Source of the DNA: Alphaproteobacteria bacterium
Lineage (GTDB): Bacteria; Pseudomonadota; Alphaproteobacteria; Puniceispirillales; Puniceispirillaceae
DNA: 64,000 bases
Assembly (NCBI GenBank): GCA_022425485.1
Contig: JAKMFL010000021.1
Coordinates: 1-64,000, forward strand
Reading direction: 5' to 3'
Shown here one piece after another: positions 18,870 to 57,710 of this stretch. Below the pieces are notes generated by a model. It did not search any database, was not told where the DNA came from, and saw nothing but the letters and a program-made list of their open reading frames with translations. Each line of letters begins with the position of its first letter. Position 1 is the first letter of the stretch. The position numbers were made by a program, and so were the translations under genes.

Positions 18870-20675
18870 CTAGTTCGATATTTCTCGGGCTAGTTCAATA
18901 TTTTCTGACGCTTGTGGCGCGTCATCCTCGTCGTCATTTTGTTTTATTGCGGTAATCTCTGCCCCTTCAAAAGCCTCTAGAACGCTGGCTACAAGGGGCA
19001 GATCTGCTGCTGCGCTTTTTTCTTTGTTTTGTATTTCTAAATCTTCTTCTGCAAGGGTTTTTCCGCCCCCTGTTTCACAGACTGAAACGAGCCATGGTGC
19101 CCCGGTTGCAGTTGACAAAGATTTGGCTAGTTGCTGGGGCAGATCTTCTGCATTGTCGCCCACTACCACAACTTCAAGCTTGTGCTGACCAAAGCTTACA
19201 ACACGCAAATGCCGCTTAATACGTGCGTTAAGTATCTTCTCATTCTGTGCGTCGAAATAATCAGCGATGTCGCGCAGGCTAGCAAAGGACGGCGCGTCGC
19301 TCTTGGCAGGCATATCGGCGCTAGGGGCAGGGGGCGCAGCCGTCACGGCCTGTTCGTTGTTTGTTGTTTGAAGCGCGGTTTCTGGTGGCGGGGCTGGCGG
19401 CACTTCAGATGAAGAGGATTCTGGAGAAGATGGTACTGGAGAAGATGGTGCCGGAGAAGATGGTGCCGGAGAAGATGGTGCCGGCGAAGATGTTTCCGGC
19501 ACAGCCGGGCTAGCTGGCGCTTTATCTTCTTGCAGGGTTTTGATGATATCTGCCGGGGTTGGCATCGGCGCTAGATGGGCAAGCCGTATTAATACCATTT
19601 GCGCGGCTGCCTTCGGGCTAGGGGCATCTTTTAGCTCACGGTGGCCATGTAGCATCATTTGCCAAGCTCGGCCAAGCTTGGCAATGCCCATATCTGCTAT
19701 CGCGCGAAGCTGGCTTAACTGATCTTCTGGCAGGTCACCTGGGCTGGCACCAGCAGCAATCAAGCTAGCCTGATGCAACAAGTCAAGCATATCTGCAAGC
19801 ATCGTTTCAGCCTCTGCACCACCCGCATCTGCTGAAAGGAATAAATTAACAGCCTCTGCTGTTTGGCCAGCAAAACAAGCCTCTAATATAGCAATGACTT
19901 GGCTTGTTTCAGCTTGACCTAGCATAGTTATGATAGAGGCTTCATCAATCTTGTCTGCGCCCATTGCGGCGGCTTGATCAAGCAAGGATAGCGCATCACG
20001 CACAGAGCCTTCCGAAGCTCTTGAAATTTGGATAAGCGCGCCGTCTTCAGCGCTAATGCCTTCGGCTTTTGCAATGCGTGCAAGATGGGTTGTCATCAGC
20101 TCATTCGGTACACGGCGCAAGTCAAAACGCTGGCATCGTGACAGGATGGTAACCGGCACTTTTCGAATTTCTGTGGTCGCAAAAATAAATTTTACATTGT
20201 CAGGCGGCTCTTCCAGCGTTTTTAGTAATGCGTTAAACGCATTGCGCGAGAGCATATGCACCTCATCAATGATATATATCTTAAATCGCGCAGAAACGGG
20301 GCGATAATTTGCGCCGTCTATAATTTCGCGTACGTCATCCACGCCGGTATTGCTAGCCGCATCCATTTCTAGAACATCAATATGCCGGCTATCCGCAATA
20401 TCGCGGCAATGCTGGCAGACCCCGCATGGGTTTAGGGTTGGCCCGCCTGTTCCGTCTGCGCCCTCACAATTCAGCCCTCTTGCCAGAATACGTGCCGTAG
20501 AAGTTTTGCCAATCCCGCGCACCCCTGTTAGCACAAAGGCATGGGCAAGACGGCCAAGTTCCAGCGCATTACTTAGGGTGCGCACAAGGGCGTCCTGACC
20601 AATTAGCGTCTCAAAACTGTCGGGGCGGTATTTTCGCGCCAGCACACGATAGGCTGTTGTCTGATTGTCACTCAT
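18870..20675 (-). CDS. dnaX: DNA polymerase III subunit gamma/tau
   Basis: Clamp-loader ATPase of the replicative polymerase, 601 residues. The AAA+ part has Walker A GVRGIGKTSTARILA, a four-cysteine zinc module (NCEGADG..NPCGVCQHC), Walker B IYIIDEVHML and sensor/arginine-finger segment TILSRCQRFDLRR. Domain III follows. A flexible linker at about residues 392-421 is made of a Ser/Pro repeat (SSPAP) encoded by six 15-bp units, before the tau-type C-terminal domain. An extended -10 promoter lies about 60 bp upstream, and ffs lies just beyond it. No obvious frameshift slippery site for gamma was identified. Confidence 0.96.
   Translation of the reverse strand: MSDNQTTAYRVLARKYRPDSFETLIGQDALVRTLSNALELGRLAHAFVLTGVRGIGKTSTARILARGLNCEGADGTGGPTLNPCGVCQHCRDIADSRHIDVLEMDAASNTGVDDVREIIDGANYRPVSARFKIYIIDEVHMLSRNAFNALLKTLEEPPDNVKFIFATTEIRKVPVTILSRCQRFDLRRVPNELMTTHLARIAKAEGISAEDGALIQISRASEGSVRDALSLLDQAAAMGADKIDEASIITMLGQAETSQVIAILEACFAGQTAEAVNLFLSADAGGAEAETMLADMLDLLHQASLIAAGASPGDLPEDQLSQLRAIADMGIAKLGRAWQMMLHGHRELKDAPSPKAAAQMVLIRLAHLAPMPTPADIIKTLQEDKAPASPAVPETSSPAPSSPAPSSPAPSSPVPSSPESSSSEVPPAPPPETALQTTNNEQAVTAAPPAPSADMPAKSDAPSFASLRDIADYFDAQNEKILNARIKRHLRVVSFGQHKLEVVVVGDNAEDLPQQLAKSLSTATGAPWLVSVCETGGGKTLAEEDLEIQNKEKSAAADLPLVASVLEAFEGAEITAIKQNDDEDDAPQASENIELAREISN
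19411..19500. repeat. 15-bp in-frame tandem repeat in dnaX, 6 copies
   Basis: Six units based on GAAGATGGTGCCGGA (plus strand) encode repeated Ser-Pro-Ala-Pro-Ser pentapeptides in the tau linker. The inner three are nearly identical and the outer ones have diverged. The unit length is a multiple of three, so copy-number change keeps the frame. Confidence 0.9.
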
Positions 20676-38950: not shown

Positions 38951-39886
38951 ATGACAGATGCACTGGTTTCCATTTTTAAACCTGCACCATTGGTGCTGGC
39001 CAGCCGTAAATCAGCGTTAGCGATGGTGCAAACACGCGCGGTACAGTCTTTGCTGGCGCCATGCAACACTGAAATATTGGGTTTGTCCACCAAAGGCGAT
39101 GAGGTATTAGACCGCCCGCTAGTAGATGTTGGCGGCAAGGGCGTGTTTGTGAAAACCCTTGAAGCAGCTCTATTATCTGGGAAGGCGGATGCAGCTGTGC
39201 ATTCAATGAAGGATATGGAAACACATATCGCCGAGGGTACCGTTATTGCAGCTGTGCTGCCGCGCGAGGATAGACGCGATGCGCTGGTCGGCCCCTTTGG
39301 CTGTCTTGATGCGCTGCCACAAGGTGCGCATATTGGAACTGCTTCGGTTCGCCGCTCGGCATGTTTGCATCATTACCGTCCGGATTTGCGGATTAGCCTG
39401 TTGCGCGGAAACGTGAATAGCCGCCTTGCGCGGCTTGAGGCTGGTGAGTTTGATGCCATTATTTTGGCGGCTGCGGGTCTGCGCCGGCTAGGCATAAATA
39501 AAGGGTATAGCCTGCTGGATGAGGAAGTGATGCCAGCTGCCGCCGCGCAAGGCGCATTAGCGGTTCAGGTGCGAGAGGGTGATGCGCGAGCTGCCGCCGC
39601 TGCCAGCCTGATTAGACAGTTAAATTGTGCGCAGACACAGATATGTGTGCGTGCTGAACGTGCTATGCTCGCCGAGCTAGATGGTTCCTGCCGCACCCCC
39701 ATTTCGGCGATGGCTGATTTGGAAGCTGACGGCAATTTGCGTTTACGCGGGGCGGTTCTCTCGCTAGATGGCAGGGAATGTTTCCGTGCCGAAGCCCATG
39801 CCTCAAAAGACGAGGCAGCTGCTTTAGGGCAAAGCTTGGCAAAGGAATTGCTGTCAGCCTGCGGCGGGCGCGGATTTCTAGCCTAG
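38951..39886 (+). CDS. hemC: Porphobilinogen deaminase (hydroxymethylbilane synthase)
   Basis: Polymerises four porphobilinogens into hydroxymethylbilane. 311 residues. SRKSALAMVQT, STKGDEVLDRPLVDVGGKGVFVKTLE and GTASVRRSA are conserved. The dipyrromethane-cofactor cysteine lies in ELDGSCRTPISA. It is the first gene of hemC-hemD-HemX-like-HemY-like, a cluster order common in alphaproteobacteria. Confidence 0.96.
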   Translation: MTDALVSIFKPAPLVLASRKSALAMVQTRAVQSLLAPCNTEILGLSTKGDEVLDRPLVDVGGKGVFVKTLEAALLSGKADAAVHSMKDMETHIAEGTVIAAVLPREDRRDALVGPFGCLDALPQGAHIGTASVRRSACLHHYRPDLRISLLRGNVNSRLARLEAGEFDAIILAAAGLRRLGINKGYSLLDEEVMPAAAAQGALAVQVREGDARAAAAASLIRQLNCAQTQICVRAERAMLAELDGSCRTPISAMADLEADGNLRLRGAVLSLDGRECFRAEAHASKDEAAALGQSLAKELLSACGGRGFLA

Positions 39887-39957: not shown

Positions 39958-40788
39958 ATGTCAAAGCCGCTGATTTTTAGCCTACGCCCAGAGCCAGATT
40001 GTAGCGAAGATGTTGCTTCATTGACAAGGGCGGGATATGAAGCACGCCCCCTGCCTATGATGGCCATTAAAGGGGATTATGCCGCGCTGGACAAAGCGCT
40101 AGAAACGTTTAGCCACACACCGGATACAGAAATAATTATCACCAGCAAACAATCAGGCAGAATGCTGGCAGCCTATTCTAACAGCTCAGCGTTCAGGCAA
40201 TCGCGGATTTGGTGTGTGGGGGCTGGTAGTGCAGAAATATTAAGGCAGGCTGGATTTATACAAGTTGAGGTCGGCAAAGCAGATGCGGCAGAGTTGCTAG
40301 AGGAGATTGACGCGAGCAATGTGGATAAAAAGCCTAGTCTTTTATGGCTTTCAGGCGCCGATATCGCCTTTAACATAGAAAAAGGGCTTAATCTGCGCGG
40401 CCATCGCGCCACCCGCATTATCATCTATCAAACTGTGGGCTATACCCCAGACAGCCAGCACCCAGAAAATCAGGCCCTATTAGATGCGCTTTCTGCTGGA
40501 CGCCCCGTTGCTGCTATCGCTATGTCGGCACGCACCATTACACGCTTTGCCGAAATGCTAGCACACCAAAAGATGCCAGATGGAAAGATGCCAGATGGAA
40601 AGATGCCAGATGGAGAGATACCAGATGGAAAGATATCAGCTAGATCGGCAAACCCTATCCTGATTGTTCAATCGCCAGCGCAAGCAGAAAGGGCAGAGAA
40701 TTTAGGCTTTTCATGTATCTGCGCAGAAGGGTTGGGACGGGAAGCTTTGCTAGCATGCGCGGCTGCGTGGGCACAGCGGCATAGGTGA
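39958..40788 (+). CDS. hemD: Uroporphyrinogen-III synthase
   Basis: Closes hydroxymethylbilane to uroporphyrinogen III. HemD proteins are poorly conserved; the call rests on position after hemC, a length of 276 residues, and a segment of the fold such as IITSKQSGRMLAAY near residue 61, VGAGSAEILRQAG and SARTITRFAEML. An unusual insert, five pentapeptides of the KMPDG type (about residues 205-228), lies in the second domain and is encoded by a 15-bp tandem repeat. The insert may lengthen a surface loop. Confidence 0.85.
   Translation: MSKPLIFSLRPEPDCSEDVASLTRAGYEARPLPMMAIKGDYAALDKALETFSHTPDTEIIITSKQSGRMLAAYSNSSAFRQSRIWCVGAGSAEILRQAGFIQVEVGKADAAELLEEIDASNVDKKPSLLWLSGADIAFNIEKGLNLRGHRATRIIIYQTVGYTPDSQHPENQALLDALSAGRPVAAIAMSARTITRFAEMLAHQKMPDGKMPDGKMPDGEIPDGKISARSANPILIVQSPAQAERAENLGFSCICAEGLGREALLACAAAWAQRHR
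40569..40643. repeat. 15-bp in-frame tandem repeat in hemD, about 5 copies
   Basis: Units of AAAGATGCCAGATGG recur at 15-bp spacing. The first three are identical and the last two have diverged. They encode KMPDG-KMPDG-KMPDG-EIPDG-KIS. Confidence 0.92.
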
Positions 40789-40881
40789 TAAAAAACTGCT
40801 GATAAGATGCAAGCTGAAATTGACCAGATGTGTTAGCTTATAGATACTCAAAAGAAACAGTTAGCCAGAAGCACCCCTCAA

Positions 40882-41682
40882 ATGGTCAAACGCAAAGCAC
40901 AAACTAACAAAACAAAATCTGATGAAAATCAGCAAGCTGATGAAGGTCTATCAGCTGCGGAAACCATCATTGATGCGCAGTTGCAAGCCGATAGCCCTAT
41001 CGCTGGAAAATTAAGCCGGGCAGAGATTATGAGCTGCATTGCGGCAGTTTTGTCGCTTATCGCGGTTGGGCTAGCATTATGGCCAGTTCTGACTACTAAA
41101 GTAGCAAATGAAAGACAGGCTGAATTAAGCGCACGTGTCGATACCCTTTCATCTGCATTGGAAAGCTTAGCTACAGCACAAACAGAACTTGCAAAAACCG
41201 TAGTTGAGCAGCAGGGGTTAAGCGGTGCGCTGAAAACAGACATAGACAAGCTTACTATGCAGGCTACCGAGCAGGCTGAAACACTCGCCGTAAATCTGCG
41301 GGCAGAGCTTGAGAGCCTTGCCCAGAAGGTACAAAAAACCCAGCAGGATGTGCTGGAGAGTTTAAATCTGCGCACGCTTTCTGCGGAAAAAACACCGCAG
41401 ACAGATGATAGCGCCGATATAACCGATAGCGCTGCAAGACAACCAGCTAGCCCTGATGGCCCAGCCAGCCAGCCAGCCAGCCAGCCAAATAAACAGCCGG
41501 ATAGAAAGCCAGATAGCCAGCCGCTGGCTGCTGATGAGGCGTGGTTGCCAAACTGGGTGGGTGCGGCGATGGAACCTGTGGCTGACTGGTTTTCAGGTCT
41601 TGTGACAATACGTAAAACAGAAGATGCGCCTGAAGGTGCCTCACAAAGCACCCAATCCTCTAGCGAAAGCACGTCTCAATAA
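40882..41682 (+). CDS. HemX/mitofilin-like single-pass membrane protein
   Basis: A 266-residue protein of the haem cluster, position equivalent to HemX. It has a polar N-terminus, one membrane helix (IMSCIAAVLSLIAVGLALWPVL, about residues 49-70), and a long periplasmic coiled coil rich in Ala/Glu/Gln. A low-complexity Pro/Ser/Gln region follows (PASQPASQP, encoded by a CCAG tetranucleotide tract), and then a short C-terminal part. The coiled coil resembles COG4223-type proteins and mitochondrial mitofilin. Its stop codon overlaps the HemY-like start (TAATG). The role is uncertain: haem-pathway or inner-membrane organisation. Confidence 0.7.
   Translation: MVKRKAQTNKTKSDENQQADEGLSAAETIIDAQLQADSPIAGKLSRAEIMSCIAAVLSLIAVGLALWPVLTTKVANERQAELSARVDTLSSALESLATAQTELAKTVVEQQGLSGALKTDIDKLTMQATEQAETLAVNLRAELESLAQKVQKTQQDVLESLNLRTLSAEKTPQTDDSADITDSAARQPASPDGPASQPASQPNKQPDRKPDSQPLAADEAWLPNWVGAAMEPVADWFSGLVTIRKTEDAPEGASQSTQSSSESTSQ
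41461..41487. repeat. CCAG tetranucleotide tract, 6.75 copies, inside the HemX-like gene
   Basis: Six consecutive CCAG units plus CCA lie in coding sequence. A change of one unit would shift the frame, unlike the trinucleotide-compatible repeats in dnaX and hemD. Confidence 0.93.
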
Positions 41683-57611: not shown

Positions 57612-57628
57612 GCCATATTTCATAAAAA

Positions 57629-57710
57629 ATTGTGACCCAAAAATTGCGACTAAAAAATTGTGACCCAAAAATTACAACCCGAAAATTAAGACCCAAAAAT
57701 TACAATTAGG
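57629..57710. repeat. 14-bp tandem repeat, 5.5 to 6 copies
   Basis: Units ATTGTGACCCAAAA, ATTGCGACTAAAAA, ATTGTGACCCAAAA, ATTACAACCCGAAA, ATTAAGACCCAAAA and a partial ATTACAATTAG run from just after the small ORF into the argG stop codon. Confidence 0.88.

Follow-up and report, generated by a model that had tools for sequence, protein, structure and literature searches.

A published cut-off for candidate phase-variable loci, as given in the relevant passage of PMC6321876, is five tetranucleotide repeats. In Haemophilus influenzae a glycosyltransferase gene carries a GACA tract of about 10 to 26 units that varies between strains, according to the section of PMC2651432 dealing with that locus. 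The CCAG tract analysed here, like the H. influenzae tetranucleotide loci (PMC2651432), is a perfect repeat inside an ORF where a change of one unit shifts the frame; exceeding the five-unit cut-off, it is on sequence a candidate phase-variable locus. In contrast to the GACA tract, as far as the same section describes it, the tract has 6.75 units and is species-specific, and the gene that carries it belongs to the haem cluster of a marine bacterium that is probably free-living. The candidates for C-terminal phase variation in Helicobacter canadensis, in the part of PMC2823697 devoted to them, resemble the present locus in having a late repeat at which a frame change affects only the C-terminal part of the protein. 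Those candidates are homopolymeric tracts with length variation in read data, whereas ours is a tetranucleotide tract known from assembled sequence. In-frame coding VNTRs in disordered linkers provide a further parallel, sharing with the CCAG tract a four-residue protein period, fast divergence and a position between more constrained parts, and a 15-nt in-frame array in hemD offers such a parallel next door. Unlike these VNTRs, the 12-nt unit here is itself 4-periodic, and slippage by single units is also possible.

The tract lies in a reading frame that we refer to as ORF X, within the window (the whole 64,000-nt stretch of DNA analysed) and in the plus-strand gene order gcvP-like (named by eye), hemC, hemD, ORF X, hemY (Table 1). 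ORF X consists of an N-terminal segment, one predicted membrane helix, a coiled coil, a long Pro/Gln-rich linker predicted to be disordered and containing the tract, and a short C-terminal helix with the motif GLVTIRKTED. Residues 165-231 have pLDDT values below 50 in a model that is of low confidence as a whole (mean pLDDT 47). The TAA of ORF X (41680-41682) shares one base with the ATG of hemY (41682) in the sequence TAATG, as expected from the coupling of the tract-bearing gene to a HemY-like start described in the initial annotation, and the HemY_N domain was confirmed. The same annotation called the tract-bearing gene HemX-like. Neither ORF X nor nine relatives matched Pfam HemX (PF04375), HemX membership by Pfam was therefore rejected, and the label reflects genomic position between hemD and hemY. 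Mitofilin/Mic60 (PF09731) was likewise rejected, with no match in ORF X or the nine relatives; position, membrane helix and coiled coil do no more than recall that family. All Pfam matches of these proteins were weak and below cut-off, mostly to coiled-coil families. A haem-operon context of alphaproteobacterial Mic60 may be a lead for ORF X; no passage describing it was found in the literature checked.

Table 1 Features of the ORF X locus, in window coordinates
Feature	Position	Strand	Basis
hemC (porphobilinogen deaminase)	38951..39886	+	PF01379 E=2e-71
hemD (uroporphyrinogen-III synthase)	39958..40788	+	PF02602 E=5e-20
Probable promoter of the X-hemY pair, TTGACC-17-GATACT	40820..40848	+	Conservation in same-genus genomes
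ORF X, 266 aa, between hemD and hemY	40882..41682	+	ORF list, predicted features
Linker-coding region, fast-evolving, residues 161-217 of ORF X	41362..41532	+	pN, pLDDT
CCAG x 6.75 perfect tetranucleotide tract, PASQPASQP	41461..41487	+	Sequence, frame
Imperfect 12-nt (four-codon) periodic region, holds most of the tract	41467..41522	+	Tandem Repeats Finder
First stop after +1 (or -2) units, TAA, directly past the tract	41490..41492	+	Frame computation
First stop after -1 (or +2) units	41603..41605	+	Frame computation
HemY-family gene, 465 aa	41682..43079	+	PF07219 HemY_N E=1e-22

ORF X is about 230-270 aa long within the genus, and its counterparts elsewhere in the family reach about 350-430 residues, measured from stop to stop. 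These longer, more distant versions continue past a similar 'L-x-x-R/K' motif into a further helical part at the C-terminus, which indicates on sequence comparison that this genus has a shortened form. Pfam recognises neither the short nor the long version. An ORF antisense to ORF X (40929-41672, minus strand) was set aside, as it looks like the shadow of ORF X itself. The hemD array (40569-40634, KMPDG x 4.4, 94 % matches) is a second species-specific coding repeat within the same gene cluster, the closest relative having a degenerate KMLSNQTMSNQVVSGQ there. More tandem arrays occur in the window, one of 15/30 nt (GGAGAAGATGGTGCC) and an A-rich one of 14/28 nt, at 19411-19499 and 57623-57705. 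In front of ORF X, each of the eight same-genus genomes has TTGACC followed after 17 nt by GATACT or AATAAT, an element kept though the surrounding DNA has diverged. Between this genome and a San Francisco Bay MAG of the genus (G002), positions 40816-40848 are 97 % identical over 33 nt while the adjoining coding DNA is too diverged for BLAST alignment. As the promoter-like element is shared, ORF X and hemY probably form a two-gene transcription unit.

The tract itself, CCAGCCAGCCAGCCAGCCAGCCAGCCA, comprises 27 nt or 6.75 CCAG units (six full units and three bases) with 100 % matches, and is read in frame as P-A-S-Q-P-A-S-Q-P. Both the sequence and the repeat finding thus bear out the coding CCAG tract of the initial annotation, as well as its late placement; the fraction of two thirds given there needs correcting, since the tract starts 579 nt into an 801-nt ORF, at 72 % and closer to three quarters. 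The four-residue pattern extends beyond the perfect repeat in the codon listing (QPAS-QPNK-QPDR-KPDS-QP), and Tandem Repeats Finder reports the wider region with period 12, 4.7 copies and 72 % matches. A chance origin of the tract is excluded, because the next longest period-4 runs in a survey of 472,615 bases (24 % of the genome) were 16 and 14 nt, the longest in 226,643-base sequences simulated ten times with an order-3 Markov model were 12-15 nt, and the peptide PASQPASQP with the codon usage of the window yields the perfect 27-nt tract at p ~ 6e-5. Given that probability, codon choice alone is insufficient and a process at the DNA level, slippage or short duplication, acted on the tract. 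Of the 33 period-4 runs of at least 11 nt in the sample, 6 belong to the AGCC/CCAG class, more than to any other motif. No second CCAG run reaching 16 nt was found anywhere in this genome, and no other tetranucleotide tract of at least five units in the 24 % sample, the remaining genome having been scanned for CCAG only. The genome encodes MutS.

Frame computation confirmed that gain or loss of one unit shifts the frame, changes of one or two units in either direction truncating ORF X and uncoupling its stop from the hemY start. One unit more gives a protein of 204 aa and two units fewer one of 200 aa, ending right past the tract, while one unit fewer (239 aa) or two more (243 aa) adds a foreign tail. 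A gain or loss of three units (12 nt) leaves the frame intact and makes the protein four residues longer or shorter. Both the predicted membrane helix and the coiled coil would remain in the truncated forms, from which the C-terminal helix with the GLVTIRKTED motif would be missing. The shifted stops fall 190 nt (+1) or 77 nt (-1) upstream of the hemY start, and no strong ribosome-binding site is evident in the sequence that precedes the hemY ATG (AGCGAAAGCACGTCTCAATAATGG), making a polar effect of an ORF X frameshift on HemY plausible. Of the initial suggestion that a shift could alter both proteins, the half concerning ORF X is thereby upheld by computation and the half concerning HemY is plausible. 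These properties could be those of a contingency locus, in which CCAG slippage would reversibly switch ORF X between the full-length form and two C-terminal truncations and lost coupling would lower HemY. Such a reading draws on the uninterrupted 4-nt unit, in frame and in more than five copies, on the consequences of adding or removing one unit and on the position of the shifted stops before a start lacking an evident strong ribosome-binding site. It also has a precedent in the late-repeat C-terminal phase variation proposed for H. canadensis in the part of PMC2823697 cited above. The placement of the tract late in its gene speaks against a switch, as do its surroundings, which are those of core haem synthesis and not of surface or restriction genes.

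Named relatives place the organism among the SAR116-type alphaproteobacteria. Comparison of the same locus in seven other same-genus genomes, with one genome per species, gave a different picture from that expected of a conserved switch. A search with the ORF X protein for strain-level copies among genome contigs found none, and the whole-genome search of the eight same-genus genomes gave a DNA-level match in the closest relative alone, a Black Sea MAG (G001, contig JADHLI010000008.1) with protein identities of 71 % for ORF X and 89 % for HemY. At the same place its linker has a 12-nt in-frame repeat, Q-P-A-N/Q-L-G-N/Q-Q-A-N, without the CCAG tract. In G002 and five further same-genus genomes the linker has neither the CCAG tract nor a four-residue repeat, and CCAG runs of 16 nt are absent from all seven genomes. 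The linker frame is preserved in this genome, G001 and G002, all indels being in-frame. In the comparison with G001 no part of ORF X evolves faster than the linker, at a pN of 0.33 compared with 0.053 for the coiled coil; dN/dS is 0.06 for the coiled coil, which is thus constrained, and 0.085 for hemY. Linker sequence and length are poorly conserved among the relatives.

Elsewhere in the order, eight genomes have a single CCAG run of 16-20 nt each, several of these runs lying in housekeeping-type reading frames that by eye are cobT-like, permease-like and uracil-DNA-glycosylase-like. Among 61 genomes the 27-nt tract is the longest such run, the next being 20 nt. In L077 and L078, two species that belong to another genus, the uracil-DNA-glycosylase-like gene carries a 20-nt CCAG tract of identical length and sequence, which encodes a PASQPANQ linker in proteins that are 95 % identical. 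Since this tract, shorter at 20 nt than the one of 27 nt, is the same in both species, the comparison speaks against short CCAG runs of the order being highly mutable in themselves.

We therefore consider the tract likely to be a coding microsatellite of recent origin that expands a disordered Pro-Ala-Ser-Gln linker, rather than an evolved switch, because it is neither conserved in relatives nor accompanied by other such tracts in the genome as sampled. A four-residue (12-nt) repeat would have existed or arisen in the disordered Pro/Gln-rich linker of ORF X, and in this species the 12-nt unit CAGCCAGCCAGC (Q-P-A-S) would have turned perfectly 4-periodic. The tract would then have lengthened by replication slippage or by short in-frame duplication. 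Steps of 12 nt, or three units, would change only the length of the linker by PASQ and would presumably be tolerated, single-unit changes would truncate ORF X and be mostly purged, and the tract would act as a spacer with a somewhat higher risk of frameshift. Against a young microsatellite counts the number of units, which at 6.75 is above the five-unit cut-off, some instability being expected. Its length, beyond that of every other CCAG run in the 61 genomes, and the improbability of its codons given the peptide count on the same side.

The contingency locus of the initial annotation survives best among the alternatives and is nonetheless improbable, given that the tract is kept in 0 of 7 same-genus genomes, that the 24 % sample held no further tract of at least five tetranucleotide units, that MutS is encoded and that the order contains a shorter CCAG tract which has passed unchanged between species. 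In its full form, in which the species-specific tract would switch how a haem-cluster protein of the inner membrane ends at its C-terminus and, through coupled translation, how much HemY is made, we regard it as very doubtful. Selection on the peptide is similarly hard to credit. The linker would need a PASQ-type repeat of set length and the DNA periodicity would be a by-product of codon choice, and indeed four-residue periodicity is present in this genome and G001 alike and CCA, GCC, AGC and CAG are reasonably common codons (0.34, 0.26, 0.29 and 0.51). What nevertheless tells against it is that the peptide would rarely be encoded by exactly this tract (p ~ 6e-5) and that the linker is poorly conserved in sequence and length. 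An assembly artefact, with a real copy number other than 6.75, is conceivable in a 90-contig draft and most improbable, as 27 nt is far below ordinary read length and the assembled length leaves ORF X in frame, with its conserved C-terminal motif and with the stop/start overlap found in relatives.

A coding microsatellite of this kind calls for caution, in that an in-frame tetranucleotide run can be the 4-periodic face of a four-residue linker repeat, and relatives tell the switch and linker-repeat readings apart cheaply. Were the tract variable, the contingency locus would be an unusual one, lying among core biosynthetic genes of an ocean bacterium that is probably free-living, in contrast to the surface genes of host-adapted bacteria. 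A true switch would mean stochastic variation in tetrapyrrole-related membrane functions of a marine bacterium of the SAR116 clade.
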